From the IMG/VR virus record IMGVR_UViG_3300030685_000004, positions 1 through 52,479 of that record: a stretch of 52,479 bases of DNA. One strand, 5' to 3'. The first letter of the stretch is position 1. Each line of letters begins with the position of its first letter. This DNA comes from a virus. A program made the position numbers and the translations under genes. Below are positions 3,576 to 41,194 of the stretch, in pieces. The notes under the pieces were generated by a model. It made no database searches. It was not told where the DNA came from and saw nothing but the letters and a program-made list of their open reading frames with translations.

Positions 3576-3599
3576 ACATTTTAGGACTGAGGTGAGGAT

Positions 3600-8102: not shown

Positions 8103-8280
8103 GAAATTATGGTCTATGGTATGTGGAGTTACCACTTTAGTACTTACTGCTCGAGGAATGACCCCTGGTTCGGTAGAACAGATTGCATCGATCATAATGG
8201 CAGGTGGTGCAATTATAGCATATATATTTGCAGAAGCTTGGACGGACGTAGCCTATGCTCCAAAAGACACCATAGTATAA
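8059..8280 (+). CDS. Holin
   Basis: 73 aa from ATG 8059. A TTG nine bases upstream is in frame, but the AAAGGGAG site at 8042-8048 is better spaced from the ATG. The layout 'KLTSRKLWSM' plus a first membrane segment, a short polar turn (MTPGSVEQ) and a second membrane segment (IASIIMAGGAIIAYIFAEAW) matches small two-helix holins of Clostridia phages. It would permeabilise the membrane and release the amidase. The stop is followed directly by promoter element P1. Confidence 0.82.
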   Translation: MPITKADLIRKLTSRKLWSMVCGVTTLVLTARGMTPGSVEQIASIIMAGGAIIAYIFAEAWTDVAYAPKDTIV

Positions 8281-8310
8281 TCGCGAGAATAACATAGGTT
8301 ATAATGAAGG
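8281..8310 (+). promoter_or_regulatory. Promoter element P1
   Basis: TCGCG at 8281 and TATAAT at 8300-8305, then GAAGG. Spacing from TCGC to TATAAT is 19, as in the other copies. It starts right after the holin stop and drives the gene at 8337. Confidence 0.75.
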
Positions 8311-8336
8311 CAAAAACCTTGAAAGGGGAGAAGGAA

Positions 8337-8647: not shown

Positions 8648-8652
8648 GCCTA

Positions 8653-8682
8653 TCGCACAAATTACACAGCCTATAATGAAGA
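8653..8682 (+). promoter_or_regulatory. Promoter element P2
   Basis: TCGCAC at 8653 and ATTACACA, then TATAAT at 8672-8677, followed by GAAGA. It precedes a non-coding RNA rather than an ORF. Confidence 0.75.
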
Positions 8683-8807
8683 GATGATTATATGCGAACA
8701 GTATAATCTGAGAAAGGTGTTGTCCTTGAAGGTTTAGCTGATGGCTATCGAAATACGGAACAACTTAATGGTTAATGGTTGAGCCGCCTATCTCTTCTTT
8801 TTTTTTT
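8678..8807 (+). ncRNA. Structured small RNA with own promoter and terminator
   Basis: No ORF fits here. GAAGAGAT (8678-8685), starting at the first base after TATAAT, is perfectly complementary to ATCTCTTC (8790-8797), which is followed by ten T. Inside, GTTGTCC pairs with GGAACAAC around a TAGC/GCTA hairpin, and GGTT pairs with AGCC near the 3' end. The RNA would be ~120 nt, closed end to end. It has no T-loop signature, so it is not a tRNA. Function unknown. Confidence 0.65.
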
Positions 8808-8810
8808 GCC

Positions 8811-8840
8811 TCGCACAATTTACACACCCTATAATGAAAG
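8811..8840 (+). promoter_or_regulatory. Promoter element P3
   Basis: TCGCAC at 8811, TTTACACA, TATAAT at 8830-8835, then GAAAG. An upstream TTGCC at the end of the T-tract gives a weak -35 match. Confidence 0.77.
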
Positions 8841-8867
8841 ATATTTCAGAAAGGGGATTAGAATATT

Positions 8868-8966: not shown

Positions 8967-8969
8967 GCC

Positions 8970-8999
8970 TCGCATAGATTACATATAGTATAATGAAAG
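8970..8999 (+). promoter_or_regulatory. Promoter element P4
   Basis: TCGCAT at 8970, ATTACATA, TATAAT at 8989-8994, then GAAAG. Upstream of the gene at 9025. Confidence 0.77.
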
Positions 9000-9024
9000 A
9001 AATTGTGAAAGGGGATTAAAAATC

Positions 9025-9263: not shown

Positions 9264-9268
9264 GCCTA

Positions 9269-9298
9269 TCGCGAAAATTACATATATTACAATGAAAG
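9269..9298 (+). promoter_or_regulatory. Promoter element P5
   Basis: TCGCG at 9269, ATTACATA, and TACAAT at 9288-9293 (the only copy with C in the -10-like block), then GAAAG. Confidence 0.7.
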
Positions 9299-9325
9299 AA
9301 TAATAAATTTAAGGAGTGATAAATT

Positions 9326-9606: not shown

Positions 9607-9792
9607 ATGACTGTTAACCAAAGATTCAGGGAAGCCGAAGCATATGATCAATTTATGCATAATCTAAACAATAAAATGAATTGTGGTCATTGCCCCGAAA
9701 ATGAGAAATATGCTCCAGGATTTCCATGTGGGAAAGAAAAATGTTTAGTAATTAGTCACTTTTTCCCCTCGCGAAAAATACATATTGTATAA
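9607..9792 (+). CDS. Small cysteine-rich (zinc-binding) protein
   Basis: 61 aa, RBS AAAGGAGA. Motif C-x2-C-P-E-N-x-x-Y ... C-G-x-x-x-C suggests a zinc knuckle. It is a paralogue of the protein at 16527 (shared Y-x-x-F-M-x-N, C-x2-CPEN, CG-x3-C). The last codons run through promoter P7, and its stop TAA is part of that TATAAT block, so the C-terminal residues are probably dictated by the promoter. Confidence 0.72.
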   Translation: MTVNQRFREAEAYDQFMHNLNNKMNCGHCPENEKYAPGFPCGKEKCLVISHFFPSRKIHIV

Positions 9793-9798
9793 TGAAAC
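9769..9798 (+). promoter_or_regulatory. Promoter element P7, inside a coding 3' end
   Basis: TCGCG at 9769, ATACATA, TATAAT at 9788-9793, then GAAAC. It lies within the last codons of the gene at 9607 and drives 9822. Confidence 0.75.
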
Positions 9799-9821
9799 TA
9801 TATTTAAAGGGGGATTTTATC

Positions 9822-10047: not shown

Positions 10048-10050
10048 GCC

Positions 10051-10080
10051 TCGCGAGAATTACATACGTTATAATGAAAG
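10051..10080 (+). promoter_or_regulatory. Promoter element P8
   Basis: TCGCG at 10051, ATTACATA, TATAAT at 10070-10075, then GAAAG. It precedes a non-coding RNA and then the gene at 10187. Confidence 0.8.
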
Positions 10081-10160
10081 AAAACGGTGTGAAGCGAATG
10101 TAGAATCTTAAATGATTCCGCCGGTGTAGGAGTTCGACTCTCCCTACATCTCTTTTATAT
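10076..10160 (+). ncRNA. Minimal tRNA-like RNA with a T-arm
   Basis: ATGTAG (10098-10103) pairs with CTACAT (10144-10149). Directly inside the 3' strand is GGAG-TTCGACT-CTCC (10129-10143), a T-arm with the standard T-loop pattern, stacked on the closing stem as in tRNAs. The only other clear hairpin is GAATC/GATTC (10103-10118). There is no D-arm and no normal anticodon arm, and the total is about 52 nt. CGGTG (10085-10089) could alternatively pair with CGCCG (10118-10122). Probably a degenerate or non-translational tRNA-like RNA. Confidence 0.45.
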
Positions 10161-10186: not shown

Positions 10187-10456
10187 ATGAAAAGAAACGA
10201 AGTACTAGACAGTGCAACCAAGTGTGTATGTGGAGACAGGGAGGCTCAATATGGTTCGCCCGAAGACAACTTCAAAGCCATTGCTGATCTATGGACAGTA
10301 TGGTGTGGATATGGTTTTACTGCTCATGATGTGGCAATAATGATGAGTCTTATGAAAGTGGCTAGACTTAAGACAGGAACTTTTAAGGACGATAGTTATA
10401 TTGATGCGGTAGGATATTTGGCATGTGCCGGAGAGATATCGGAGTCGCGAGAATAA
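10187..10456 (+). CDS. DUF6378-like conserved phage protein
   Basis: 89 aa from ATG 10187 (GAAAGGGG upstream). Pattern 'DREAQYGSPEDNF..IA.LW', 'HDVAIMMSLMKVARL..G' and 'DSYIDAVGYLACAGEI' matches a small helical family I know as DUF6378, frequent in phage early regions. Function unknown. The histidine and acidic residues could bind a metal or nucleotide, but this is only inference. The stop codon lies inside promoter P9. Confidence 0.8.
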   Translation: MKRNEVLDSATKCVCGDREAQYGSPEDNFKAIADLWTVWCGYGFTAHDVAIMMSLMKVARLKTGTFKDDSYIDAVGYLACAGEISESRE

Positions 10457-10474
10457 CATGTACTATAATGAAAT
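10445..10474 (+). promoter_or_regulatory. Promoter element P9, overlapping a coding 3' end
   Basis: TCGCG at 10445, ATAACATG, TATAAT at 10464-10469, then GAAAT. The first 12 bases encode the C-terminus of the upstream protein. No T-tract or TTGCC precedes it. Confidence 0.77.
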
Positions 10475-10497
10475 AAAATTAGAAAGGGGTTTTAAAA

Positions 10498-10806: not shown

Positions 10807-10830
10807 GAGAGAGCTTTGGCTCTTTCTTTT
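10807..10830 (+). terminator. Rho-independent terminator
   Basis: GAGAGAGC (10807-10814) pairs with GCTCTTTC (10819-10826), loop TTTG, followed by TTTT. Confidence 0.7.
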
Positions 10831-10859
10831 CGCAAAAATTACACACATTATAATGAAAT
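10830..10859 (+). promoter_or_regulatory. Promoter element P10
   Basis: TCGCA at 10830, ATTACACA, TATAAT at 10849-10854, then GAAAT. Abuts the preceding terminator. Confidence 0.77.
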
Positions 10860-10886
10860 CAAATACGATTGAAAGGGGATTTTATT

Positions 10887-11111: not shown

Positions 11112-11134
11112 CCTTCCTCCTTTCTTTTTCTTTT
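11103..11134 (+). terminator. Rho-independent terminator overlapping a stop codon
   Basis: GAGGGG (11103-11108) pairs with TTCCTC (11114-11119) with two G.U pairs. The stop TAA is in the loop. A long T-rich tail follows. Confidence 0.6.
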
Positions 11135-11163
11135 CGCGGAAATTACACACACTATAATAGAAG
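11134..11163 (+). promoter_or_regulatory. Promoter element P11
   Basis: TCGCGG at 11134, ATTACACA, TATAAT at 11153-11158, then AGAAG. Drives the tRNA-like RNA at 11161. Confidence 0.77.
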
Positions 11164-11239
11164 AAGATGTTAGCTCAGTAAGGTAAGAGCGCGATCAAGT
11201 AACTCAGAGGTCGTGGGTTCGAATCCCACACATCTTCTT
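11161..11239 (+). tRNA. tRNA-like RNA with abnormal anticodon arm
   Basis: Perfect acceptor AAGATGT (11164-11170) / ACATCTT (11230-11236), extendable to 10 bp. TA at positions 8-9. D-arm GCTC/GAGC (11173-11176, 11187-11190). T-arm GTGGG-TTCGAAT-CCCAC (11213-11229). The 22 bases between the D- and T-arms do not form a 5-bp stem with a 7-base loop. The best pairing is CGATC/GGTCG with a 12-base loop, consuming the variable region and one T-stem base. U33 is absent and CCA is not encoded. It may be a pseudo-tRNA or a tRNA mimic. Confidence 0.6.
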
Positions 11240-11248
11240 TATTTTCAC

Positions 11249-11278
11249 TCGCGAAATATACATACATTATAATGAAAG
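11249..11278 (+). promoter_or_regulatory. Promoter element P12
   Basis: TCGCG at 11249, TATACATA, TATAAT at 11268-11273, then GAAAG. Confidence 0.77.
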
Positions 11279-11306
11279 AATATATAATTTGAAAGGGGCG
11301 TTTAAA

Positions 11307-11522: not shown

Positions 11523-11525
11523 GAC

Positions 11526-11555
11526 TCGTGGAAATTACACACTGTATAATGAAAG
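11526..11555 (+). promoter_or_regulatory. Promoter element P13
   Basis: TCGTGG at 11526 (only copy with T for C at position 4), ATTACACA, TATAAT at 11545-11550, then GAAAG. TTGACT upstream is the best -35 match of the set. Confidence 0.78.
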
Positions 11556-11624
11556 ATATTAGCTCATGGCATGAGCACCAGTAGGAATGTACTGGAGGGT
11601 GAGTTCGACTCTCACATATCTTTT
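11551..11624 (+). tRNA. tRNA-like RNA with abnormal anticodon loop
   Basis: Acceptor AAGATAT (11553-11559) / ATATCTT (11616-11622), extendable by a pair on each side. TA 8-9. D-arm GCTC/GAGC with a 7-base loop. T-arm GTGAG-TTCGACT-CTCAC (11599-11615). The anticodon stem is CCAGT/ACTGG (11578-11582, 11591-11595) but the loop is eight bases (AGGAATGT), or six if A-T closes it. No U33. Variable loop AGG. No encoded CCA. A GAA (Phe) triplet is present but not in standard register. The 5' end is the first base after TATAAT. Confidence 0.6.
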
Positions 11625-12699: not shown

Positions 12700-12704
12700 T
12701 TAGG

Positions 12705-12734
12705 TCGCGAGAATTACACACGTTATAATGAAAG
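12705..12734 (+). promoter_or_regulatory. Promoter element P14
   Basis: TCGCG at 12705, ATTACACA, TATAAT at 12724-12729, then GAAAG. Closest to the family consensus. No preceding T-tract. Confidence 0.8.
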
Positions 12735-12765
12735 AAAAATTTAAATTTGAAAGGTGGAAATAATC

Positions 12766-17352: not shown

Positions 17353-17499
17353 ATGACAAAGATAGGTAAGTATAAATTGAGAAAATATAGTGTACTAGAT
17401 ATAGGTTGGTTCTGGTTGCGTTGCACAATAGCAGCGGTAGCGGTTTGTGTAGTTATATATGGACTTGGTGATATGATAGAGATGGTTGCTCGTTTCTAA
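17353..17499 (+). CDS. 48-residue membrane protein
   Basis: ATG 17353 with GAAGGGGG upstream. Basic N-terminus (KIGKYKLRKY) and one long hydrophobic segment (~17-39, IGWFWLRCTIAAVAVCVVIYGLG). Promoter P15 follows the stop. Confidence 0.66.
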   Translation: MTKIGKYKLRKYSVLDIGWFWLRCTIAAVAVCVVIYGLGDMIEMVARF

Positions 17500-17500
17500 C

Positions 17501-17530
17501 TCGCGAAGATTACACAGTATATAATGAAGA
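17501..17530 (+). promoter_or_regulatory. Promoter element P15
   Basis: TCGCG at 17501, ATTACACA, TATAAT at 17520-17525, then GAAGA. It is the last element before the replication region, about 12 kb from the next. Confidence 0.78.
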
Positions 17531-17554
17531 TAAAACTTGAAAGGTGGAGTTAAA

Positions 17555-19080: not shown

Positions 19081-19088
19081 GTGTTATT

Positions 19089-19268: not shown

Positions 19269-19285
19269 TGAAAGGGGATATTATA

Positions 19286-19978: not shown

Positions 19979-19979
19979 T

Positions 19980-20541: not shown

Positions 20542-20542
20542 T

Positions 20543-20680
20543 ATGAATAGATATAAGCAGTTTGAAGAGAAATGCAAAGTGTGTCCTTGGAATACTATGT
20601 GTAGTGTGGAGTTGACTCAAGTGTTAGGATGTATGTCTGATAACGAAAAGGAGAATGACAAATGTCAACCGATCAAATGA
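20543..20680 (+). CDS. 45-residue cysteine-rich protein
   Basis: ATG 20543 with AAAAGGAG upstream. C-x2-C-P-W-x3-M-C and two later Cys suggest a zinc site. It overlaps the next ATG (20662). Confidence 0.6.
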   Translation: MNRYKQFEEKCKVCPWNTMCSVELTQVLGCMSDNEKENDKCQPIK

Positions 20681-20796
20681 GAAATGCTGTAGCCACTGTA
20701 TATGCTGGTAGAAAATGGGCACTTAAAGTCAAGGTTATGAGTGATCATCAGGTACTTGCCATATATAAAAGATTTGTAAATTCCAAATTATTATAA
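20662..20796 (+). CDS. 44-residue protein, paralogue of 19089
   Basis: ATG 20662 with AAAAGGAGA upstream. Shares 'W..KVK.M.D.QVLAIY' with 19089. The two copies alternate with 'V-ADLYD' genes, suggesting that a gene pair was duplicated. Confidence 0.62.
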   Translation: MSTDQMRNAVATVYAGRKWALKVKVMSDHQVLAIYKRFVNSKLL

Positions 20797-20816
20797 AAAG
20801 AAAAGGGGAGAGGCCC

Positions 20817-21281
20817 ATGAAAATTTTAACATTTACAGATAGAGAATCTGCTGAAGCAATTTTAAAGAGTCTTGATGTCTGTATACAATGTAAAGGAGTT
20901 GCCACAGTTGCAGACTTATATTACTATATAAATACTCCAACTTATTGTATGATGTATCCGGAATCACCTGACGATACTAAAATGGGATGGACTACTATAG
21001 ATACAGCTAAGTTATCTAGAGATTTATACCACAATACTTATCGGTTAATGGTACCAGATCCTATAGCGTTAGATAAGCAATCTGGTCCAGTCGAACCAGT
21101 AGCATCAACAATTATTCTCAGTGAGGATTATATGATTGAATATGACCTTAAGGACGATGGTCAAGCCGCATTAACTGTAAAGGTTAAAAATGGACGTAAT
21201 GAAAGAGTTATAAATGTACTTTTCGACGATATTGCAAAACTAGTTTATAAAATATTAATAATTGAAAGGGGTAATAAATAA
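20817..21281 (+). CDS. 'V-ADLYD'-family protein
   Basis: 154 aa. N-terminal module ('FTDRESAEAILKSLDVCIQCKGVATVADLYYYIN...MGWTTIDTAKL...RLMVPDPIALD') followed by a ~65-residue beta domain ('IEYDLKDDGQAALTVKV'). RBS AAAAGGGGAG. The end overlaps the start of the DUF6353 paralogue. Confidence 0.76.
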   Translation: MKILTFTDRESAEAILKSLDVCIQCKGVATVADLYYYINTPTYCMMYPESPDDTKMGWTTIDTAKLSRDLYHNTYRLMVPDPIALDKQSGPVEPVASTIILSEDYMIEYDLKDDGQAALTVKVKNGRNERVINVLFDDIAKLVYKILIIERGNK

Positions 21282-26900: not shown

Positions 26901-27894
26901 TAGTAAAATGTTGGATGGTAAGCTAGCTAAATTCTTGAACAATCCTAATTACAAATCTGATGATTTATCAAATGCTTTGAAGACAGTAATCAATTCAGTA
27001 TATGGATTAACCTCAGCTAAATTTGAGAATGCTTTCAGAGACCCAAGAAACATAGATAATATAGTAGCCAAAAGAGGAGCTCTCTTTATGGTAGACCTCA
27101 AATATGCAGTACAAGAAAAAGGATTTACTGTAGCACATATTAAGACAGACTCCATAAAGATACCAAATGCAACTGAGGAAATTATTCAGTTTGTTATGGA
27201 CTTTGGACTCAAATATGGGTATGACTTCGAACATGAAGCTACCTATGAAAAGATGTGTTTAGTTAATGATGCTGTATATATTGCTAAATATGACAGTAAG
27301 GGTTTAATAGGTAAAGGTGGGAAACATGCTGGTGAGTGGACAGCTACAGGAGCACAGTTTATTCAGCCATATGTATTTAAATCATTGTTTAGTAAAGAAC
27401 TATTAACTTTTGCGGATACCTGTGAAACAAAATCTGTAACTACAGCCTTATATTTAGATATGAATGAAGACCTACCACCAGAAGAACATAAATATCACTT
27501 TGTAGGAAAGGTTGGGTCGTTCTGTCCAATCAAACCAGGAAAGGGTGGTGGTATATTACTAAGAGAAAAAGAAGGAAATTATCATGCAGCAAGTGGTAGT
27601 AAAGGATTTAGATGGCTTGAAGCAGAGATGGTTCATATTCTTAATAAAGAAGCAGACATCGATCATGCATATTATAATAAGTTGGTTGATGATGCATTAA
27701 CTAATATATCCAACTTTGGTGATACTGAATGGTTTATATATAGTGAGTCACCTAAACCAAGAAATTTATGTTCAACCCCATGTGGAAAAAATAATGATAC
27801 TCTTTGTGAAAGTTGTAATAACTTATCAGAAGAAGAGGATATCTTATTATGTAAACTTGGTTCACATTTTAAACCAACACTATTACCATTTTGA
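23965..27894 (+). CDS. SF3 helicase / primase-like / family B DNA polymerase fusion
   Basis: 1309 aa from TTG 23965 (AAAGGAGG upstream). Residues ~120-400 are an SF3 / phage D5-type helicase with Walker A at 180-188 (GEAGAGKST) and 'FMATNKPVKI'. Residues ~470-590 look like an archaeo-eukaryotic primase core: D505/D507 (VVDFDL), H542/H544 (GVHLHY) and EIK ~562. Residues ~695-870 are a 3'-5' exonuclease (D702-x-E704; 'YCVNDVEAT'). The polymerase follows: motif A D939 (LLDVASMHPSS), motif B K1006...YG1014, motif C KTDS with D1062. Motif C has Lys where most family B enzymes have Asp, but the catalytic Asp is kept. Cysteine pairs near the C-terminus may bind zinc. It could unwind, prime and copy DNA alone. 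Confidence 0.85.
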   Translation: MDFYKIKSRPVKQGVIELSPDFKVCKCKDLMIRGKSFYAIWDEEKGLWSTDEYEVQRLVDEELIKARDDETKNSDSIVKVKLMMEFSNKSWVEYRNFMKNISDNSHQLDTELTFQNTEIKKKDYVSKKLPYPLEEGRCDAFDELIGTLYDPEERAKLEWAIGAVIAGDAKNIQKFIVLYGEAGAGKSTILNIIQKLFEGYYTTFEAKALTTNNNSFAMEVFRTNPLVAIQHDGDLSKIEDNTKLNSIISHEEMTMNEKYKPSYTSRVNCFLFMATNKPVKITDAKSGIIRRLIDVKPSGKRLPSKKYMALMSKIDFELGAIAQHCFNVYKNMGKHYYNSYKPLEMMFQTDMFFNFVEDNFYEFKKDDGITLSRAFTLYKEYCEDSLIDYKLSKTKFREELRNYFKYFSGGTAIRVNGVITRNYYSGFLDTKFNSESKKEEEIPNTLVLDSTESIFDKECSECLAQYANEYDTPNKKWADVKTKLKDIDTSQVHYVRLPENHIVVDFDLKDDKGEKSLELNTEAASKWPPTYAEYSKSQAGVHLHYIYEGDPNQLSRLYSEGIEIKVFNGNSSLRRKLSKCNHIPIATINSGLPLKGEKMINFESVKSEKGLRELIKRNMEKEIHAGTKPSMDFIYKILEDAYNSGLGYDITDMRPRLLAFASNSSHQADYCIKLLGQMKLKSEDISSPLNDYDPKEELMFFDVEVFPNLFVVVWKTKGKQAVKMINPTPLEIESLLKYRLVGFNCRRYDNHIMYARYIGYTNAELYTLSQRIISNSPNCMFGEAYNLSYTDVYDFASAGNKKSLKKFEIELGIHHQELGLPWDEPVPEELWTKVAEYCVNDVEATEAVFDHLVGDWTARQILAELSGLTVNDTTNAHSTRIIFGTNRKPQDVFVYTDLSEQFPGYKFDFGKSTYRGEEVSEGGHVYSEPGMYTKVALLDVASMHPSSIELLDMFGPYTKKFSEIKKARLAIKHDNYEAASKMLDGKLAKFLNNPNYKSDDLSNALKTVINSVYGLTSAKFENAFRDPRNIDNIVAKRGALFMVDLKYAVQEKGFTVAHIKTDSIKIPNATEEIIQFVMDFGLKYGYDFEHEATYEKMCLVNDAVYIAKYDSKGLIGKGGKHAGEWTATGAQFIQPYVFKSLFSKELLTFADTCETKSVTTALYLDMNEDLPPEEHKYHFVGKVGSFCPIKPGKGGGILLREKEGNYHAASGSKGFRWLEAEMVHILNKEADIDHAYYNKLVDDALTNISNFGDTEWFIYSESPKPRNLCSTPCGKNNDTLCESCNNLSEEEDILLCKLGSHFKPTLLPF

Positions 27895-28502: not shown

Positions 28503-29709
28503 TCTTCGAGACTATCAGATAGAAGCAATTGATAAACTAAAGTCAGGCTCCATCCTTTGTGGTGGGGTCGGCTCTGGTAAATCGAGAACTGCCATAGCTT
28601 ATTATTTTCTGAAAGAATGTAAAGGTACTATGAATGTAAATGGTGTTGGGGAATTCTCTCCCATGACAAAACCAAAAGACCTTTATATCATTACAACAGC
28701 TAAGAAAAGAGATACTTTAGAATGGGAAGGGGAATGTACTCCTTTCCTTATATCAACAAAGAAAGATTGTGGTATGAGTACAGTCATCGTTGACTCATGG
28801 AATAATATATCAAAGTATATCAAAGTTAGGAATGCATTCTTTATATTTGATGAACAGCGATTAGTTGGTTCAGGCACCTGGGTCAAATCATTCTTAAAGA
28901 TAGTAAAGAACAATAATTGGATTCTTCTTAGTGCTACACCAGGTGATACTTGGACCGACTATATTCCTGTCTTCATAGCTAATAAGTTCTATAAGAACCG
29001 TACTGAGTTTCTTAGGCGACACGCCGTATATAATCGATTTACAAAATATCCAAAGATAGAGAGCTTTATGGAGCAAGGTCACCTTAGCCGATTAAGAGAA
29101 CAGATAACCATAAGAATGGAATATACCAAACAAACAATTGCAATTGATAAAACTATAAATGTTCCATTTAAAAAAGAACCTCTTGACACAGTTCTCCTTA
29201 AACGATGGAACCCATATACTGAGAAACCAATCAAGTCCATCAGTGAAGTATGCTATCTAATGAGAAAGGTGGTTAATAGTGATCCGTCTAGGTTGGAAGA
29301 AATAACTAAGATAATCAAGGAGCATCCGAAAGTAATCATATTCTATAATTTTGATTATGAGTTGTCTATGCTTAAAGAATTAGGTGACACATTAAAAATA
29401 TCAACCAGTGAATGGAATGGACATGCCCATCAAGAGATTCCAAAAACTAAATCATGGATATATTTAGTTCAGTATACAGCGGGTGCAGAGGGTTGGAATT
29501 GTATAGAGACAGACACAATCATATTCTACTCACAAAACTATTCATACAAGACCATGGTTCAGGCAGCGGGACGAATCGACCGTCTTAATACACCATTCAC
29601 ATACTTGTATTACTATCATATTAAGTCAAACTCAATAATAGACCTAGCAATAGCAAGGGCATTAAAAAATAAAAAGAATTTCAACATACATCGTTTTATA
29701 GATTCTTAA
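28495..29709 (+). CDS. SF2 (DEAD/SNF2-like) helicase
   Basis: 404 aa. Motif I GGVGSGKSRT (G23-T32, K29), motif II DEQR (119-122), motif III SATP (146-149), and in the second RecA domain 'TAGAEGWNC' and motif VI QAAGRIDRL (356-364). Complete but short helicase, typical of phage replication/recombination modules. The start overlaps the previous gene by 8 bases. The SF3 fusion probably supplies replicative unwinding, so this may handle branched DNA or transcripts. Confidence 0.88.
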   Translation: MISLRDYQIEAIDKLKSGSILCGGVGSGKSRTAIAYYFLKECKGTMNVNGVGEFSPMTKPKDLYIITTAKKRDTLEWEGECTPFLISTKKDCGMSTVIVDSWNNISKYIKVRNAFFIFDEQRLVGSGTWVKSFLKIVKNNNWILLSATPGDTWTDYIPVFIANKFYKNRTEFLRRHAVYNRFTKYPKIESFMEQGHLSRLREQITIRMEYTKQTIAIDKTINVPFKKEPLDTVLLKRWNPYTEKPIKSISEVCYLMRKVVNSDPSRLEEITKIIKEHPKVIIFYNFDYELSMLKELGDTLKISTSEWNGHAHQEIPKTKSWIYLVQYTAGAEGWNCIETDTIIFYSQNYSYKTMVQAAGRIDRLNTPFTYLYYYHIKSNSIIDLAIARALKNKKNFNIHRFIDS

Positions 29710-29711
29710 CC

Positions 29712-29741
29712 TCGCGAAAATAACATATACTATAATAGAGG
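29712..29741 (+). promoter_or_regulatory. Promoter element P16
   Basis: TCGCG at 29712, ATAACATA, TATAAT at 29731-29736, then AGAGG. The only copy outside 8.2-17.6 kb. It sits at the head of the nuclease - RNA polymerase - head gene run. Confidence 0.78.
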
Positions 29742-29746
29742 GATAG

Positions 29747-29774
29747 AATAAGCCCATCTTATTATTTTGTTTTT
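29747..29774 (+). terminator. Leader hairpin with T-tract just after P16 (attenuator candidate)
   Basis: AATAAG (29747-29752) pairs with CTTATT (29758-29763), loop CCCAT, then ATTTTGTTTTT. It lies between promoter P16 and the ribosome binding site at 29780, so it would stop most transcripts before the first gene unless bypassed. Confidence 0.5.
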
Positions 29775-29790
29775 GCAAAGGAGATAATCC

Positions 29791-30102: not shown

Positions 30103-30622
30103 TGCATCCAAATATCATTGGGTGAACTATGATGAAGAGAAACTTGCATCTACTTACTCTAAATTTTTAGCAACTATGCAGGGAACTAGATTGCATGAGT
30201 TTGCTAGTGAGTGTATAAAATTAGGAATCAAACTTCCTAAATCAAAGAAGACAATGAACCTTTATGTAAATGATGCTATAGGTTATAAGATGGCAACAGA
30301 ACAACCTTTGTATTATTCAGAGAATTGTTTTGGCACAGCGGATGCCATATCCTATAGACAAAACTTGCTTAGAATTCATGATTTAAAAACTGGAATTACT
30401 CCAGCATCTATGAGACAACTAGAAGTATATACTGCTTTATTCTGTTTAGAATACAAGATAGACCCAACTTCTATAGATACAGAATTAAGATTATACCAAA
30501 TGGATGAGGTTCTAATTCATACCCCACCAACAGAAGATATCCTACATATCATGGACAAAATTATAGTATTCGACCAAAAGATTACTAAATTAAAGATTGG
30601 AGGAGAATATGATTATCTATAA
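30053..30622 (+). CDS. PD-(D/E)XK nuclease (Cas4/RecB-like)
   Basis: 189 aa from ATG 30053 with AAGGAGGA upstream. 'GTRLHEFASECIKLG', 'FGTADAISY...LLRIHDLKTGITPASMRQLEVYTALFCLEY' contains the G-x-x-D ... D-x-K catalytic pattern and the downstream Q-x-x-x-Y motif of RecB-family nucleases. No CRISPR is present, so a recombination or DNA-processing role is more likely than spacer acquisition. Confidence 0.82.
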   Translation: MNFNTHFELAGQHAFLSASKYHWVNYDEEKLASTYSKFLATMQGTRLHEFASECIKLGIKLPKSKKTMNLYVNDAIGYKMATEQPLYYSENCFGTADAISYRQNLLRIHDLKTGITPASMRQLEVYTALFCLEYKIDPTSIDTELRLYQMDEVLIHTPPTEDILHIMDKIIVFDQKITKLKIGGEYDYL

Positions 30623-33521
30623 TGAACTAAGTCATATTGGCACTGGCACCTCTGGTCGATATCCAAAAGGGTCAGGACAAATGCCACAAAGAAGTAAAAC
30701 ACTACTAACTCAAATAGAAGAATTGAAAAAACAAGGTATGACTGATAATGAAATAGCAACAGGATTAGGCATGAACTCTAACCAATATAGACAAAGAAGA
30801 TCAATTGCCAACGCTGACCAGAAAATAGCAGATGCTCATAAAGCTATGATGTTAGAACAAAAGGGATATAGTAATGTTAAGATTGGTGAAATCATGGGTA
30901 GAAATGAATCATCAATTCGAGATTTATTAAAACCAGGTGTTTTAGAAAAAGCCAGTACAATTAGAAACATATCTAATATGTTGAAAGATGAACTAGACAC
31001 AAAACCTGGTTATGTTGATATTGGTGTTCAAACAGAACAATATATTGGTATTAAAAGAACTCAACTTAAAACAGCTGTTAGATTACTAGAAGAAGAAGGG
31101 TATGTAACACATGAAATTCCAATTGACCAACAAGGTACTGGTAAAATAACAACTATGTTAGTAGTTGCTAAACCAGGAACTACATGGGCAGAAGTTATGA
31201 ACAACAAAGATAAAATTCACATGATTAATGATAAATATTCTGAAGATGGTGGTCGAACTATTCTTGGAATTGAGACCCCTAATAGTATAAGTTCCAAACG
31301 AGTTAAAATAAACTATGCGGATGATGGTAGTGGCGGAAAAGAAATGGATGGTGTTATCCAATTAAGAATGGGTGTTCCTGAATTATCTTTAGGGAGTAAG
31401 CGATATGCTCAAGTTCGTATAGCTGTAGATGATACTCATTACTTAAAAGGTATGGCTATATATACTGATAAACTCCCTCCAGGAATTGATGTAATGTATA
31501 ACTCCAATAAATCAAAAACTACACCAGCTAGTAAAGTGTTTAAATCAATGGCCGATGAGAAAACTGGATTAATAGATCCTGATAACCCATTTGGTGCAAC
31601 CATTAGACAAAAACATTTTGTAACTGAAGAAGGTAAAAAAACACCAGGTTCAGGTAAAATGTTAGAATTAAAGAATGAAGGTAAATCTTATTCTGAAATA
31701 GCTAAAATAATGAAAATACCAGAAGATTTGGTTAAAAAAAGTGTAAAGGTAAGTGCCTTAAATATAGTTAATGAAGAAGGCGATTGGGAAAAATGGTCTA
31801 AAAATATATCATCTCAGATGTTATCTAAACAAACCCCAGATCTTGCCAAACAACAACTCGGATTAGCTTATGCCTCTAAGAAAAAAGAATTTGATGAAAT
31901 TATGACTCTGACTAATCCAACTGTTAGAAAAAAACTACTTGATGGCTTTTCTGATGATTGTGATTCAGCAGCTGTACATCTAAAAGCAGCGGCTCTACCA
32001 AGACAAGGGTCAAGAGTTATATTACCAATTCCAAGTATGAAGGATACAGAGATATATGCTCCAACCTATCGAAATGGGGAAAAAGTAGTTCTTGTTAGAT
32101 ATCCACATGGTGGTATATTTGAAATACCAGAACTAACAGTTAACAATCAGCAACCAATTGCTAAAAAACTTCATGGAAAACTAATTGATGCTGTTGGTAT
32201 ACATCCTAAAGTAGCTGAAAGATTGTCAGGAGCAGATTTTGATGGTGATACTGTTTTAGTTATTCCTAATAGAGGAAGAAATGGTAAACCATTAATAAGA
32301 ACTGAACCAGCTCTTAAACAACTTGAGGATTTCGATCCAAAAGCATTATACAAATTACCTGACTCAGCACCAAAAATGTCATCTCGTACTAAAGGTATTG
32401 AAATGGGAAATGTTTCTAATCTTATTACAGATATGACTATTAAGGGTGCAAAAAATGAGGAAATAGTTAGAGCCGTTAAACATAGCATGGTTGTAATCGA
32501 TGCTGAAAAACATCATTTAGATTATAAACAATCAGCTATTGATAATGGTATTGCTGCTTTAAAAAAGACTTATCAAGGTGGTGCAATAAGAGGAGCTTCT
32601 ACCTTAATATCCAAAGCCTCTTCTGATTATAGAGTTGATGATCGAGTAATTGGAACCGGTAATGGTATTATTAATCCCAAAACAGGTAAAGAAAAGAGAA
32701 TATATATTGACCCTGTTACAGGAAATAAATTATATACAAATACAGGAAAGTCCTATATCAAGAAAACTGTAACTATAACCGATCCAGAAACAGGAAAGAA
32801 GAAAATACTTAGTGTATATAATGCTCTTGTTAAAAAGGCATTGTTAGAGAATCCTAATCTGCCTATTAAAGAAACAGTTGTCACGAAAACAATCAAGTCT
32901 ACTAAGATGGCAGAAGCAAAAGATGCATTTGAGTTATCATCTGGAACTACTATGGAAACGGTATATGCTGAGCATGCAAACAAATTAAAAGCATTAGCAA
33001 ATGAGTCAAGGAAAGCATACATCAGTACCCCACCTTCTTTGTACTCCGCCTCTGCAGCAAAGACCTATGCTAAAGAAGTAGCTACACTTAATGCTAAACT
33101 AAACGTAGCGTTAAAGAATGCTCCTCTAGAGAGGAATGCAAATAGAATAGCAGGACTCAATATAGCAGCCAAGAAGGCAGCCAACCCTGACATGGAACTC
33201 AGTGAGATTAAAAAGTACAAGTATCAAGCCTTAGCAGAAGCAAGAGCTAGAATGGGTGCGAAAAAAGATCCTGTCGAGATAACAAATAAAGAATGGGAAG
33301 CTATACAAGCAGGTGCTGTTAGTAATAACACATTAAGTCAGATACTTAACAATGCTAGCCCTGATTTAGTTAAGCAATTAGCAACACCTAGAGTTAAACC
33401 TACAGTGACAACAGCACAAGAATCAAGGATGAAAAACTTAATTAAGAGTGGCCATACTCAAGCAGAGATAGCCGATGAATTAGGTGTATCAACTTCTACA
33501 GTATCATCATACATGAACTAA
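30609..33521 (+). CDS. Single-chain DFDGD-type RNA polymerase (YonO / crAss-like), with HTH segments
   Basis: 970 aa from ATG 30609 (GGAGGAG at 30599). A TTG at 30597 is in frame but unnecessary. Residues 543-547 are DFDGD in 'LSGADFDGDTVLVIPN', the Mg-binding signature of double-psi beta-barrel RNA polymerases. Upstream 'RQGSRVILPIPSM...YAPTYRNGEKVVLVRYPHGGIFEIP' and downstream 'AVKHSMVVIDAEKHHLDYKQ' fit the same fold. Helix-turn-helix-like segments occur at ~35-60, ~83-108, ~357-382 and at the C-terminus (GHTQAEIADELGVSTSTVSSYM). The N-terminus reads LSHIGTGTSGRYPKGSG, like the tags on neighbouring head-module proteins. It probably transcribes phage promoters and may be packaged (inference). 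Confidence 0.85.
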   Translation: MIIYNELSHIGTGTSGRYPKGSGQMPQRSKTLLTQIEELKKQGMTDNEIATGLGMNSNQYRQRRSIANADQKIADAHKAMMLEQKGYSNVKIGEIMGRNESSIRDLLKPGVLEKASTIRNISNMLKDELDTKPGYVDIGVQTEQYIGIKRTQLKTAVRLLEEEGYVTHEIPIDQQGTGKITTMLVVAKPGTTWAEVMNNKDKIHMINDKYSEDGGRTILGIETPNSISSKRVKINYADDGSGGKEMDGVIQLRMGVPELSLGSKRYAQVRIAVDDTHYLKGMAIYTDKLPPGIDVMYNSNKSKTTPASKVFKSMADEKTGLIDPDNPFGATIRQKHFVTEEGKKTPGSGKMLELKNEGKSYSEIAKIMKIPEDLVKKSVKVSALNIVNEEGDWEKWSKNISSQMLSKQTPDLAKQQLGLAYASKKKEFDEIMTLTNPTVRKKLLDGFSDDCDSAAVHLKAAALPRQGSRVILPIPSMKDTEIYAPTYRNGEKVVLVRYPHGGIFEIPELTVNNQQPIAKKLHGKLIDAVGIHPKVAERLSGADFDGDTVLVIPNRGRNGKPLIRTEPALKQLEDFDPKALYKLPDSAPKMSSRTKGIEMGNVSNLITDMTIKGAKNEEIVRAVKHSMVVIDAEKHHLDYKQSAIDNGIAALKKTYQGGAIRGASTLISKASSDYRVDDRVIGTGNGIINPKTGKEKRIYIDPVTGNKLYTNTGKSYIKKTVTITDPETGKKKILSVYNALVKKALLENPNLPIKETVVTKTIKSTKMAEAKDAFELSSGTTMETVYAEHANKLKALANESRKAYISTPPSLYSASAAKTYAKEVATLNAKLNVALKNAPLERNANRIAGLNIAAKKAANPDMELSEIKKYKYQALAEARARMGAKKDPVEITNKEWEAIQAGAVSNNTLSQILNNASPDLVKQLATPRVKPTVTTAQESRMKNLIKSGHTQAEIADELGVSTSTVSSYMN

Positions 33522-33537: not shown

Positions 33538-33780
33538 ATGAAACAATCAATGTTAACTACAACCGATAATCCATTCGATCCATTCGATGATTTCGATGAA
33601 TGGTATGCCTTTGATGAATCAAAAGGTTATCATTCTCTTAGTTACTTATCTAGAATAGTAAGAACAAGTGATGAACTAAGTGAACTCGATCAGCATTTAG
33701 CAATTGAATCTGCTATTGATGACATAATTAAATTAAATCTTTTAGGAATCTATACGCGAGCAACTAAAGATGTAGAATAA
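33538..33780 (+). CDS. Conserved small phage protein
   Basis: 80 aa, RBS AAAGGAG. 'PFDDFDEWYAFDESKGYHSLSYLSRIVRTSDELSELDQHLAIESAIDDIIKLNLLGIY' is acidic and helical. I recognise the pattern from genes next to RNA polymerase/terminase modules of Bacillota phages, function unknown. Confidence 0.78.
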   Translation: MKQSMLTTTDNPFDPFDDFDEWYAFDESKGYHSLSYLSRIVRTSDELSELDQHLAIESAIDDIIKLNLLGIYTRATKDVE

Positions 33781-34033: not shown

Positions 34034-34366
34034 ATGGCCGTGTCCAAGAAAGATGATTCACCGAAACGCCAGCCTCCTGCTACTACACCAGAAGCAAGAG
34101 AAAGTCAAATGATAGCCTTTGCTGTAGACTTGGCAGAGAAACAACTTCTCAAAGGAACGGCATCGTCACAAGTTATAACTCACTTCTTAAAACTTGGTTC
34201 GACCAAAGAAAGAATTGAGAAAGAGATTCTTATGAAACAAAAAGAACTCATACAAGCCAAGACAGATGCTATTCAATCAGCAAAGAAGGTAGAAGAATTA
34301 TATGCAAATGCCCTTAATGCAATGAAATCATACAGTGGAAAAGGAGGTAATGACGATGGAGACTAG
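34034..34366 (+). CDS. Conserved phage protein upstream of head module
   Basis: 110 aa, RBS AAAGGAGTG. 'PPATTPEARESQMIAFAVDLAEKQLLKGTASSQVITHFLKLGSTKERIEKEILMKQKELIQAKTDAIQSAKKVEELYANALNAMKSY' is a conserved helical sequence found near terminase genes in Bacillota phages. It could be a small-terminase-like or packaging accessory protein. This is context only. Confidence 0.72.
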   Translation: MAVSKKDDSPKRQPPATTPEARESQMIAFAVDLAEKQLLKGTASSQVITHFLKLGSTKERIEKEILMKQKELIQAKTDAIQSAKKVEELYANALNAMKSYSGKGGNDDGD

Positions 34367-35678
34367 TATAGACAATCCTTCTTTAGATGAACTTGCACAT
34401 CATGGTATTATGGGAATGCATTGGGGACATCATAAAGGAGAAATATCTGCATCCATCGAAAAAGCTCATGCAAATCTAAAGAGTCAAGAAAAGATTCTTA
34501 GAAAAGAGACTGAAAGGTATAATAGAGCAGGATCAACGTATGCAAGTGCATCTGATCAGAAAAGATTTGACTCAGCAATGAGAGAGTATGATTATGCTCG
34601 AACAGATTTAAAAAGTGCTAAGATTTTAGATAAAATAAATTCAAGTCCTAAATCTAAATCCCAACTTAAAGTTGAATCTAAGTATAAAGAGAAAGGTATG
34701 TCTAACGACGAAGCATCAGTGGCGGCCTATAAGCATATAAAAACTAGGAATTTATTGATAGCCGTTGGAGCCACAACAGTTGTAGCCGGAGGTGCATATC
34801 TAGCTTACAAGTATCATGATGATAGAGTCGATAAGATAATAAAAAGTGGTACCAAGTTATCGAACATATCAGCGGAGAATACCAAGGATATTCGTGATGC
34901 ATTCTACTCAACAAGAGTTGGTGAAAAGGGAAAGATACTGGATAAAATAGATAACTCTAAGTATAAAGGTATCTTTGCCAGAAATATATCTGGTTTTGGC
35001 AAAACTCCATATGATAAAGAAATTCATGTTTTAAAAGACATTAAGATGGTATCGCCAGAGAATAGTAGAAAAACAATAGCCTCACTTATTAAGACTGACC
35101 CAGATTACCATGAAAAACTAAAGTCTTACATCTTATACCAGACTGGTGATTATGTTGATAGTTGGCCTGGACTTGATAAAGTTAGAAAGAGAGCTGTTGA
35201 CGATATAGTTGATGGTAAAGTCACAAAAGATGTTTATAAAATAGTTAATATGGCAATGGCTGATCATAGACCAAATGCGGAATCAATAACCGAACCTTTT
35301 AAGAAAGCATTAAGTAAAGATGGTTATAATGCTATAAAAGATATAACCGATAACCAATTAAGTGGATTCCGAACCTTCAATCCAATTATAACATTCAACT
35401 CTAAAGGTTTGGTGGATGTAGTAGGGGTTAAAGAAGTAACAGAAGATATAATTAAAAAATCTGAGAAATTAGCATACGGGCATTTACATACGGTAGAAAA
35501 TGTTAAAGCAGGAGGTCAACTTGCGGGCATAATATTAGGGTTTACTGGTATCAATACAGGAGTCAAAGCACTAGGTAAACAATCACTGACTAGGGAAACA
35601 CTTAACTATCGTAAAGATAATCCTAATACCAAGTTATCAAACACTGAAATAACGCGTATGTTGGAAAGGAGTAGATAG
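34356..35678 (+). CDS. Tagged head-module protein with membrane segment (possible virion cargo)
   Basis: 440 aa from ATG 34356 (AAGGAGG at 34341). Tag 'LAHHGIMGMHWGHHKG' at ~11-26, then a long charged coiled-coil region, a membrane segment (~134-156, LLIAVGATTVVAGGAYLAYKY), and a ~280-residue C-terminal domain ('VDKIIKSGTKLSNIS...DAFYSTRVGEKG...SKYKGIFARNISG'). The C-terminal region resembles uncharacterised proteins encoded next to capsid genes of gut phages, possibly a divergent transferase fold. The tag shared with five neighbours suggests a common destination, perhaps the virion. Confidence 0.7.
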   Translation: METSIDNPSLDELAHHGIMGMHWGHHKGEISASIEKAHANLKSQEKILRKETERYNRAGSTYASASDQKRFDSAMREYDYARTDLKSAKILDKINSSPKSKSQLKVESKYKEKGMSNDEASVAAYKHIKTRNLLIAVGATTVVAGGAYLAYKYHDDRVDKIIKSGTKLSNISAENTKDIRDAFYSTRVGEKGKILDKIDNSKYKGIFARNISGFGKTPYDKEIHVLKDIKMVSPENSRKTIASLIKTDPDYHEKLKSYILYQTGDYVDSWPGLDKVRKRAVDDIVDGKVTKDVYKIVNMAMADHRPNAESITEPFKKALSKDGYNAIKDITDNQLSGFRTFNPIITFNSKGLVDVVGVKEVTEDIIKKSEKLAYGHLHTVENVKAGGQLAGIILGFTGINTGVKALGKQSLTRETLNYRKDNPNTKLSNTEITRMLERSR

Positions 35679-36628: not shown

Positions 36629-37489
36629 ATGAGAGATAATGAGTATCTAGAGCATCATGGTGTTATGGGAATGAAGTGGGGACATACAAGCGGGAGTATT
36701 GAAAAAACTGCATATTCAGTAGGAGCAAAAATTAATCCTCGAGAACTAAAATACAAAGTTCATAAGATGACAACTAAAGTAAATGACGATACAAAATTAT
36801 TAGCAGATCTTACTAAAGCATCTAGTAAAGAATCCGGTGTTCTTCCAAATAATAAAAATGCACTTCTAGCAATAGAAAAAGTAGGTATCAAAACTCATGC
36901 TAAAACAGTGTATGATAATTTGGATAAACAAGATATTCTTAATTTAAAGACTTATACTGACTCGGCTAGGTATTCTAGAAGTGTTAATAATTATCTAGCA
37001 ATAGGAACACCTAAAGAGATTGCAGCAGAAGCAGCAAAGTTAAAACAAACACTTGGAAAGAATGCAATAAACGATGTTACAGTGTATCGAAGTTGTAATT
37101 TTAAATTTTCCATAAATGGCGTAGCGAAAAAACTAGATACGATGTCTGAAGAAGAACTACAAAATAACATTTCATTACTTTCTAAAAACTTCAGTGGAAA
37201 ATCGCTAAAAGAAAATAGAGTTTTCTCGACAAGTACATCTCCTTTATTTGCAATAGATACCTGGAGAGCAGTTAATCCAACAGCAGCTTCAACCTACAAT
37301 ACATATATGATTATTAATTGTAAGGGAACACCTGGAGTCTTAGCCGATGGTAAAACAAATGATGGAAAATCTCTTGTTAATACAAGAAGTAATCAAGAGG
37401 GCATATTAGCCCCAAATAAGTTAACTTATAAGAAATTAGAGTTTGATAGTGAACGCAAAATGTTTGCTATAACAGTAGATGCCACTTAA
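36629..37489 (+). CDS. Tagged ADP-ribosyltransferase
   Basis: 286 aa, RBS AGAGGAGG. Tag 'YLEHHGVMGMKWGHTSG' at residues 6-21, then a helical region and an ADP-ribosyltransferase fold of the VIP2/ARTT kind: Arg154 (VYRS), Ser-Thr-Ser 200-202 (RVFSTSTSP) and Gln256-Glu257 (NQEGILAPN). The usual E-x-E is not exact here, so activity is likely but unproven. By analogy with T4 Alt, a virion-packaged transferase could modify host proteins at infection start. The tag and head-gene location make packaging plausible. Confidence 0.8.
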   Translation: MRDNEYLEHHGVMGMKWGHTSGSIEKTAYSVGAKINPRELKYKVHKMTTKVNDDTKLLADLTKASSKESGVLPNNKNALLAIEKVGIKTHAKTVYDNLDKQDILNLKTYTDSARYSRSVNNYLAIGTPKEIAAEAAKLKQTLGKNAINDVTVYRSCNFKFSINGVAKKLDTMSEEELQNNISLLSKNFSGKSLKENRVFSTSTSPLFAIDTWRAVNPTAASTYNTYMIINCKGTPGVLADGKTNDGKSLVNTRSNQEGILAPNKLTYKKLEFDSERKMFAITVDAT

Positions 37490-37515: not shown

Positions 37516-37998
37516 ATGGATAAAGACTATCAAAATTTTGTAGGAAGAATGGGAAGTTTTGACGATACACTAGAGGTTGAAACTGATTTTGTAAAGCATT
37601 ATGGTAAGATAGGTATGCATTGGGGACGTAGATCAGGCAGATCAGGGACTCTTAGTAAAAAAATGGGAGCCAAGTTATCAGAAATGAAAACTCACTCTAC
37701 TGATAGCGAAGATTTTAAACAAAAACAGACACTTAAAACTAAGAAAATTAGAGAAATGTCTAATGCCGATCTTCAGACTCTAAATACTAGACTTCAGTTA
37801 GAAAGATCATATAAAGATTTAAGTAAACAGGATATGTCAGCTGGTAGAAAATATGCCAATGATGTCCTAGTTAATTCTTCCAAGCAAGCTCTTAGTAATG
37901 TGGTAATTAAGGGTATGTCAGCTGGATTAGACTCGTTATTAAAAAAAGCCATAAAACCAAAAGGTCCTGTTCAACTAAGTTTCGTTAAAGGTATGTAA
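37516..37998 (+). CDS. Tagged head-module protein, unknown function
   Basis: 160 aa, RBS AGAGGTG. Tag 'FVKHYGKIGMHWGRRSGR' at ~26-43, then a helical region 'STDSEDFKQKQTLKTKKIREMSNADLQTLNTRLQLERSYKDLSKQDMSAGRKYANDVL' that I recognise from small proteins next to capsid genes of Bacillota phages. Possibly scaffold-like or cargo. Stop abuts the terminase ATG. Confidence 0.75.
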   Translation: MDKDYQNFVGRMGSFDDTLEVETDFVKHYGKIGMHWGRRSGRSGTLSKKMGAKLSEMKTHSTDSEDFKQKQTLKTKKIREMSNADLQTLNTRLQLERSYKDLSKQDMSAGRKYANDVLVNSSKQALSNVVIKGMSAGLDSLLKKAIKPKGPVQLSFVKGM

Positions 37999-39755: not shown

Positions 39756-40235
39756 ATGAACAACTTAGAACATTCTGGTAAATTAGGAATGAAATGGGGA
39801 CAACGACATGCCGAAAAAAAACTCAATAAGTCAGCAAAGAAAGATGCAACTAAGCATGAAGTAGCCCGTCAAGCATATGGAAAAGGTGCTGGTATACAGA
39901 GACGACTTGTTAAAAAAGAAATTGAGGAGAAGATGAAAAATCCTCAGTATAAAGCAGCATATGATAAAGCCTTATCTGAAATCAACTATTCCAAAATAAA
40001 TAATAAAGCTATAGCGAACAGTAGAGGCCGAGCAACTAAAGATCAAGCAAATAGAAGTGCGGCAATCGTAGCTAAGACTCTAACAGGAACAACATCATTA
40101 GCAGCTGGCTATATTCTATACACTCAAAATAAACCAGCGATAGATAGTGCAGTTAGTTCAGCTTTGAAGTCAGCAAAAACGGCAGTTGATACCTACCAAA
40201 CTGCTAGACAATGGAAAAAGAACTTCGGTGGATAA
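39756..40235 (+). CDS. Tagged small head-module protein
   Basis: 159 aa, RBS AAGGGGG. Tag 'LEHSGKLGMKWGQRHAEK' at residues 4-21. Very basic (Lys/Arg-rich), helical, with a hydrophobic stretch ~115-130. Basic composition and tag suit a protein held with DNA in the capsid (inference). Confidence 0.7.
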   Translation: MNNLEHSGKLGMKWGQRHAEKKLNKSAKKDATKHEVARQAYGKGAGIQRRLVKKEIEEKMKNPQYKAAYDKALSEINYSKINNKAIANSRGRATKDQANRSAAIVAKTLTGTTSLAAGYILYTQNKPAIDSAVSSALKSAKTAVDTYQTARQWKKNFGG

Positions 40236-40255: not shown

Positions 40256-40660
40256 ATGGACAATGAAGCACAACACTTTGGTGTAATGGGTATGCATTGG
40301 GGAAACACTAATGATGAGCATTTAGAACATTACGGTAAGCCAGGAATGAAATGGGGTCATCGTAGTAAAGTATGGGCTAAAGATCGAGTGTTTGGAAGTG
40401 TTAAGTTTGTAAAAAATGCAGTTACGCATCCAATACTAACGACGGTTGCAGAAGTAAAAACTATACCAAGACATAAAGTAAGTACTGTAGCGGCTCTTGC
40501 TACCGGTGGACAATTAATGTCAAATAGACAGATAAAAGATATTAATACTACTACAAATGCGATGGTGGCAGCAAAAAAAGCTAAGAAAATAGCAAAAGCT
40601 CAAGCTCATGCTGCTTCGATTCTTACAAAACATGGTGGTAAAAAAGTGAGTGCTCTTTAA
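40256..40660 (+). CDS. Small protein with two tags
   Basis: 134 aa, RBS AGGAGGTG. Two tag copies in tandem: 'AQHFGVMGMHWGNT' (~5-18) and 'LEHYGKPGMKWGHRS' (~23-37). The rest is basic and helical. Little sequence besides the tags is recognisable, so the tag itself may be the functional unit. Confidence 0.7.
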   Translation: MDNEAQHFGVMGMHWGNTNDEHLEHYGKPGMKWGHRSKVWAKDRVFGSVKFVKNAVTHPILTTVAEVKTIPRHKVSTVAALATGGQLMSNRQIKDINTTTNAMVAAKKAKKIAKAQAHAASILTKHGGKKVSAL

Positions 40661-40693: not shown

Positions 40694-41194
40694 ATGGATA
40701 ATGAGTTAAGACATCATGGTGTTATGGGAATGCAGTGGGGTAAAGGTACAATATCTGAAGATTCACTAGAACATTACGGTAAGACAGGAATGAAGTGGGG
40801 ACGACGTGGCAGAGGTCTCACTGCAAATAGACAAGATGCTTTTAACAAACGAGATTTGAATAGACTTAATAATGGCGGACATGTAAGTGTCGGTTTTACA
40901 AAGAAAAGACAAGCTGCCTATGATAAACGAGACAAACAGTCAATAGAAAAATCAATAGAAAAAAGAGATAAACAAATCTCAATCAGAAAATTAGGAAATG
41001 GTAAAACACTGAGTCAGAATCTACTAAAAGATTTAAAAACGGTAGCTCTATCACAAGTAGCTGGTGCCGTTTTAATAAAAACTGGTCATCTACAAGCTGG
41101 AGTTCTTTTAGGAACTTTTGGAACTTATTGTGGTGTAGGACATGCCATAGGTAGTACTATAGCCGCAGGAGTCAATAAAAAGAATAACTACTAA
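40694..41194 (+). CDS. Small protein with two tags
   Basis: 166 aa, RBS AGGAGGTG in the same context as the preceding gene, showing duplication. Two tags: 'LRHHGVMGMQWGKG' (~5-18) and 'LEHYGKTGMKWGRRGRG' (~26-42). Basic middle, hydrophobic C-terminal region (~128-155, VAGAVLIKTGHLQAGVLLGTFG). Confidence 0.7.
   Translation: MDNELRHHGVMGMQWGKGTISEDSLEHYGKTGMKWGRRGRGLTANRQDAFNKRDLNRLNNGGHVSVGFTKKRQAAYDKRDKQSIEKSIEKRDKQISIRKLGNGKTLSQNLLKDLKTVALSQVAGAVLIKTGHLQAGVLLGTFGTYCGVGHAIGSTIAAGVNKKNNY

Follow-up and report, generated by a model that had tools for sequence, protein, structure and literature searches.

The virus record analysed here, 52,479 bases long (hereafter the window), carries on its plus strand at 30609..33521 a gene of the PHROG 4291 family for a predicted single-chain RNA polymerase of 970 amino acids (aa), with its ATG at 30609. 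A profile search matched residues 5-969 of the product to PHROG 4291, which is annotated as "RNA-dependent RNA polymerase", with 1166 bits. When the protein was compared with phage genomes using tblastn, 250 phage records with a homologue were found, and at least 80 % of the query was covered in 249 of them. The full-length family match and this coverage show that the open reading frame (ORF) is not a chance one. The homologues belong mostly to Arthrobacter, Gordonia and Streptomyces phages, and occur also in Lactococcus, Curtobacterium, Microbacterium, Rhodococcus and Faecalibacterium phages. They are usually labelled "HTH protein" (HTH, helix-turn-helix) or "RNA-dependent RNA polymerase", and "putative RNA polymerase" in FP_oengus. 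At least 177 IMG/VR stretches encode relatives of the polymerase, and others are found on contigs from genomes or metagenome-assembled genomes of Lachnospiraceae, Clostridia and Bacilli. The family is therefore already catalogued and is experimentally unstudied; no reported function was found for its other members.

The catalytic motif DFDGD occupies residues 543-547 (32235..32249) and is invariant in 48 of 48 aligned homologues. The whole LSGADFDGD segment and residues R270, K280, G281 and K301 are likewise unchanged across the 48-sequence alignment. By alignment and profile comparison the motif lies in a double-psi beta-barrel region (DPBB-A, residues 465-556, 32001..32276). A second barrel (DPBB-B) is presumed at residues 249-390 of the same chain (31353..31778), the region that holds the four invariant residues and for which the AlphaFold model predicts strands (249-389). 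This model has a mean predicted local distance difference test (pLDDT) score of 82 and a predicted template modelling score (pTM) of 0.72. Its best solved match in Foldseek was, locally, RDR2 of Arabidopsis thaliana (E-value 1e-4, probability 1.00), followed by beta'-type subunits, and the top match in the viral library was another phage "RNA dependent RNA polymerase" (E-value 3.6e-10). In profile comparison the catalytic stretch aligned with gp64 of Thermus phage P23-45 (E-value 8e-4, probability 24 %). Two sequences of the AR9 beta' subunit were the sole PDB matches of the core profile (E-value 1.2), again at the catalytic stretch. Pfam RdRP was matched by five of the 48 homologues, and a single-sequence search against solved structures gave no RNA polymerase match.

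We conclude that the protein is almost certainly an RNA polymerase, most probably a single-chain two-barrel enzyme of the QDE-1/RDR type. An earlier note on this DNA, made from the sequence alone, had recognised DFDGD at these residues and proposed such an enzyme; the motif proved to be as described, and the proposal is well supported by PHROG 4291, the invariant GADFDGD and the AlphaFold and Foldseek results. With QDE-1 and the eukaryotic RDR enzymes the phage protein shares the best solved-structure match (RDR2), the DxDGD motif and the single chain, but it differs in having HTH domains and a promoter motif, and there is no overall sequence similarity. The same note had suggested structure prediction and a comparison with YonO of SPbeta, which it named as a single-chain polymerase with this motif. 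The first gave the match to an RDR-type core, whereas the second showed no detectable profile similarity (hhalign probability 2.5 %, outside the catalytic region). The polymerase thus falls outside the detectable YonO family, and its relation to YonO is only distant.

Four HTH segments were located in the protein, and all coincide with tri-helical stretches predicted in the AlphaFold model. These are HTH1 (residues 31-66, 30699..30806; predicted helices 32-41/46-52/57-84), HTH2 (residues 77-110, 30837..30938; helices 89-96/100-107), a middle HTH (residues 348-380, 31650..31748; helices 348-356/361-368/372-378) and a C-terminal HTH (residues 933-970, 33405..33518; helices 935-946/951-958/962-969), the last of which scores above the Pfam cut-offs for HTH_23 and Sigma70_r4. 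The 48-sequence alignment shows HTH1, HTH2 and the C-terminal HTH throughout, and HTH_23 matches 47 of the 48 members. The middle HTH (about 345-380) is an insertion seen in this phage alone, and the nearest relative (76 % identical) is without it. HTH-like segments near both ends and in the middle had thus been placed correctly before. The idea that built-in HTHs represent a new design applies to the middle one only, since the other three are a family trait. In our interpretation the HTH domains would set promoter specificity.

The RNA-dependent annotation of the family and its closest solved fold, that of an RNA-dependent RNA polymerase, raise the question of whether a virion protein with this fold might chiefly make RNA from RNA templates or synthesise primers, and not transcribe from promoters. 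We consider this very improbable, because the presence of three HTH domains throughout the family and the co-conservation of a DNA promoter motif (see below) favour DNA-dependent transcription. Furthermore, the window encodes at 23965-27894 a homologue of the GP55 replicase family of phage 1706, and GP55, which was described in 2025 as a helicase-primase-PolB enzyme (PMC12205980), already has primase activity. The polymerase is taken here to be DNA-dependent.

The N-terminus carries a tag, LSHIGTGTSGRYPKGSG, at residues 7-23 (30627..30677), where a tag-like sequence had been noted previously. Residues S15, G16, R17, Y18, G21 and G23 are invariant, and residues 15-23 (SGRYPxGSG) have a mean conservation of 0.97 vs 0.94 for the catalytic loop. 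The tag is nevertheless predicted to be disordered (pLDDT <50 in the AlphaFold model); a conserved yet unfolded peptide is what one would expect for docking. A tblastn search with the tag returned 246 phage records with nearly the genus make-up of the polymerase homologues, and nearly all tag matches listed lie in the polymerase gene. A tag that looks related, H-x-G-x-x-G-M-K-W-G (Pfam DUF7211, PF23847), opens six proteins around the terminase of the window, and DUF7211-tagged proteins stand on both sides of the terminase in the genomes of this group. The N-terminus of the polymerase gave no match to the DUF7211 profile at an E-value of 1e-3, and only the L-x-H-x-G opening is shared.

In phage 1706 the polymerase homologue (orf75) was deposited as "structural protein", and the same label is given to orf7, which adjoins the terminase. 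As orf75 lies outside the morphogenesis cluster, its label most likely comes from proteomics. In Rhodococcus phage ReqiPoco6 the annotation refers to "1706_gp75 structural protein" at the polymerase homologue and to "1706_gp07 structural protein" at a tagged protein. Family-wide conservation of the tag and the listing of a homologue among virion proteins make virion delivery the more interesting hypothesis, and we think it fairly probable that the polymerase is carried in the virion. The tag could instead be a conserved part of the enzyme, such as an N-terminal arm that reaches into the active site or contacts DNA, and no packaging signal at all. Its invariance, the restriction of SGRYP-type tags to polymerases in the loci examined and the missing profile match to DUF7211 would all suit such an arm. 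However, the tag is predicted to be disordered, two HTHs separate it from the core, and its L-x-H-x-G opening recurs in DUF7211 tags on phage proteins that include another deposited structural protein; we therefore give the arm about one chance in three.

Promoter elements were searched with a position matrix that was built from TATAATG sites and iterated to convergence, and 20 Markov genomes served as the control. The matrix converged on exactly 15 sites in the window, all on the plus strand, and on none in the Markov genomes, which confirms the 15 elements counted in the earlier note. Their consensus is cTCGCG.aaaTtACATAc..TATAATGaAag. Fourteen of them lie at 8.3-17.5 kb, in a region of small genes, mostly 28-36 nt before a start codon. 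Elements 1 to 6 are found at 8278..8313 (TATAAT at 8300), 8650..8685 (-10 at 8672), 8808..8843 (-10 at 8830), 8967..9002 (-10 at 8989), 9266..9301 (TACAAT at 9288) and 9766..9801 (-10 at 9788). Element 7 (10048..10083, -10 at 10070) stands before a tRNA-like sequence and is followed by elements 8 (10442..10477, -10 at 10464) and 9 (10827..10862, -10 at 10849). Element 10 (11131..11166, -10 at 11153) precedes a tRNA at 11164, element 11 is at 11246..11281 (-10 at 11268), and element 12 (11523..11558, -10 at 11545) precedes a tRNA at 11552. Elements 13 (12702..12737, -10 at 12724) and 14 (17498..17533, -10 at 17520) complete this group. Element 15 (29709..29744, -10 at 29731) lies upstream of the operon of nuclease, exonuclease and polymerase, and the matrix of the window finds a copy at this position in most relatives. 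No TTGACA-like -35 was found at 16-18 bp, and conserved TCGC and ACA blocks occupy the would-be spacer; a standard sigma-70 scan of two stretches gave no excess over shuffles.

The elements at 10070, 11153 and 11545 are followed within a few bases by tRNA or tRNA-like sequences, whose transcripts would thus have almost no leader. One promoter-preceded tRNA-like sequence has an anticodon that ARAGORN could not read. Directly after promoter 15 there is a short hairpin with a T-run (29737..29780, plus strand), which is weak in this phage and clearer in relatives (e.g. L023 and L011), where it lies about 880-960 nt upstream of the polymerase gene. Across 36 loci the mean folding z was -1.5 and the T-run was present in 34. 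The hairpin is possibly an attenuator, a terminator or a short RNA. A repeat of TAGCAGCAAATGC in five copies at 3008-4106 was also considered as a promoter and was ruled out, as it repeats within the coding sequence of a tail-region gene.

For the relatives, the search was started from the matrix of the window, which was then refined genome by genome against shuffled controls. The architecture CGCg-N2-AAttACA-N4-cTATAaTGaaA was present in 6-15 copies per genome in ten relatives with 33-61 % guanine-cytosine (GC) content, and in every relative all sites were on the coding strand. The counts were 8 in Cheesy, 6 in Scap1, 12 each in P162 and 1706, 12 in Magel (one doubtful), 11 in DizzyRudy (two doubtful), and 11 (two doubtful), 15 and 8 in three IMG/VR genomes. 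Among the control genomes, sk1 had one site and P23-45 and part of SPbeta had none. The version of Faecalibacterium phage oengus, CGCGAAAAATACAG..T.CTTTATGGAAG, was found by reading upstream regions (15 matches, 14 of them good); its -10 is CTTTAT in 11 of 14 sites and the spacing is unchanged. Sigma-70 requires an A at -11, which CTTTAT does not have, and thus should not read the oengus -10. FP_oengus (L129, 2284-27682), with CTTTAT in place of TATAAT, offers a natural test case for sigma independence. In several genomes conservation runs past the -10 (e.g. TATAATGAGACCCC in Magel) and includes the +1 to +8 region. No genome has a TTGACA-like -35; the stretch that would be its spacer holds the TCGC and ACA blocks. 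Both conservation past the -10 and blocks inside the spacer are common with phage polymerases but not with sigma-70. In the library searched, no relevant paper turned up for either the tag or the motif.

When a strict, exact motif pattern was run over all IMG/VR contigs, 34 contigs matched, of which 29 encode the polymerase. The five polymerase-less contigs include one fragment of the window's own phage, one with a DUF7211-tagged protein, and two that encode the replicase of the group (56-57 % identity) and end where the polymerase would lie; these four were traced to the same phage group and the fifth was not. On this showing, the motif is specific to this phage group. Among ten genomes, the correlation of motif distance was stronger with the distance between polymerases (Mantel r 0.66, p 2e-4) than with GC difference (r 0.42, p 0.009). 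The link between motif and polymerase is supported but unproven, because the search began with the matrix of the window and phylogeny confounds the correlation. Still, we consider it likely that the polymerase reads this promoter motif.

Based on the computed results (family and fold class, tag conservation, promoter motif and co-conservation of motif and polymerase), we lean slightly towards a virion-delivered, sigma-free RNA polymerase that starts early transcription at its own promoters. DNA dependence, the reading of the motif, its recognition by the HTHs and the role of the tag as a loading signal are what we infer. The polymerase would be made late, from the last operon before the cos end and the lysis and terminase genes, and would be packaged in the virion, probably via the disordered N-terminal H-x-G...SGRYPxGSG peptide. 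It would then enter the cell with the DNA and initiate early transcription without a sigma factor at phage-specific promoters of ~32 bp (15 here), probably bound by the N- and C-terminal HTH domains.

Several observations weigh against this explanation. The polymerase activity is a prediction from sequence, and the RDR2 match is local (TM 0.24), covering the core and not the whole protein. The tag of the polymerase is without a match to the DUF7211 profile, the "structural protein" label of 1706 orf75 rests on a database record, and the early timing of the promoter-bearing region is deduced from gene layout. Motif and polymerase share one phage lineage, in which co-conservation would fit any other core gene. 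Finally, most genomes have TATAAT or TATAGT as the -10, which host RNA polymerase could read if a phage activator assisted it.

This last point leads to the main rival, in which the enzyme acts late, like YonO, and the host reads the early promoters. Here a working polymerase would be made after infection for middle or late genes, and the host RNA polymerase, helped by a phage HTH activator, would serve the early promoters. YonO, which transcribes the late genes of SPbeta (PMC5467207), is a precedent. Promoter 15 precedes the polymerase operon, and this operon runs toward the late genes; the sigma-like TATAAT is kept in most genomes. On the other hand, the missing TTGACA-like -35, the TCGC and ACA blocks inside the would-be spacer, the oengus -10 without -11A, the conserved +1 to +8 region and the deposition of the 1706 homologue as a structural protein speak against this rival, and we regard this rival as rather unlikely.

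The closest counterparts are the other PHROG 4291 proteins (Arthrobacter, Gordonia, Streptomyces, Lactococcus 1706-like and Faecalibacterium phages), which show full-length homology of 36-50 % in phage records and have the same tag, three HTHs and gene order before cos and the terminase, but lack the middle HTH insertion of this phage. By description, gp66 of crAss-like phage phi14:2 is also similar: a single-chain two-barrel enzyme with proposed virion delivery and early transcription. To our knowledge it has no HTH or tag. Phage P23-45 has two single-chain two-barrel enzymes, gp64 and gp96, with their own ~30-bp promoters, and gp96 is in the virion (PMC10770324). However, only the catalytic region aligns, and gp96 is fused to the tape measure protein while the enzyme studied here is free-standing. 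YonO is likewise a single-chain phage polymerase with the DxDGD motif, and no tag was seen in its sequence.

The six DUF7211-tagged proteins of the window are all encoded on the plus strand. They comprise proteins of 447 aa (34335..35678, tag HHGIMGMHWG), 286 aa (36629..37489, HHGVMGMKWG), 160 aa just before the terminase (37516..37998, HYGKIGMHWG) and 159 aa just after it (39756..40235, HSGKLGMKWG), and two proteins with two tags each, of 134 aa (40256..40660) and 166 aa (40694..41194). The 286-aa protein has ADP-ribosyltransferase-like residues (R154, STS 200-202, E257); that it is an R-S-E-type ADP-ribosyltransferase is a motif-level guess, and its AlphaFold model has a pLDDT of 32. The DUF7211 tag occurs in 244 phage records, with nearly the genus make-up of the polymerase homologues, and in 17 of 20 polymerase-bearing IMG/VR records vs none of 14 control genomes. 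In the loci examined, 267 of 278 tagged ORFs have the tag within 30 residues of an ATG. Among the domains behind it are 2H phosphoesterase/2'-5' ligase, glutamine deamidase, ADP-ribosyltransferase, GNAT and barstar. A "virion structural protein" PHROG was matched by 25 of 114 tagged proteins, and PADLOC gave weak, scattered matches only. The record G067 (that of L078, 94,754 bases) has ten DUF7211-tagged places, the most of any phage record seen.

That the two kinds of tag share a function is a hypothesis only, since they have just L-x-H-x-G in common and the polymerase has no DUF7211 match. In its fullest form, our proposal is that a large group of siphophages of Firmicutes and Actinobacteria have a free-standing, sigma-free two-barrel polymerase, which is loaded into the virion by its short N-terminal peptide, is injected with the DNA and reads a family-wide ~32-bp promoter through its HTHs. 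It would be accompanied by effector-like proteins that bear DUF7211 tags and have deamidase, ADP-ribosyltransferase, acetyltransferase and 2H-phosphoesterase folds. We put forward this combination tentatively and hold it to be less likely than not. If true, these phages would own a transcription system with a predictable, directly testable promoter, and their early genes would be independent of host RNA polymerase. If the tags load virions, they would mark the phage proteins that are injected first. A compact polymerase that consists of one chain, needs no sigma factor and has a known promoter would also be of practical use, and would shed light on the origin of cellular RNA polymerases. The gene is present in hundreds of sequenced phages, many of them cultured, where it is annotated as "HTH protein" or "RNA-dependent RNA polymerase".

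Adjoining the polymerase gene is a gene for an 80-aa protein of PHROG 4303 (33538..33780, plus strand), which by position and similarity is also present in phage 1706 (orf76) and is possibly an accessory protein. Four adjacent ORFs at 18448-21278 form a local paralogue array: each matches PHROG 4079, and in three the match covers the C-terminal part of that family.

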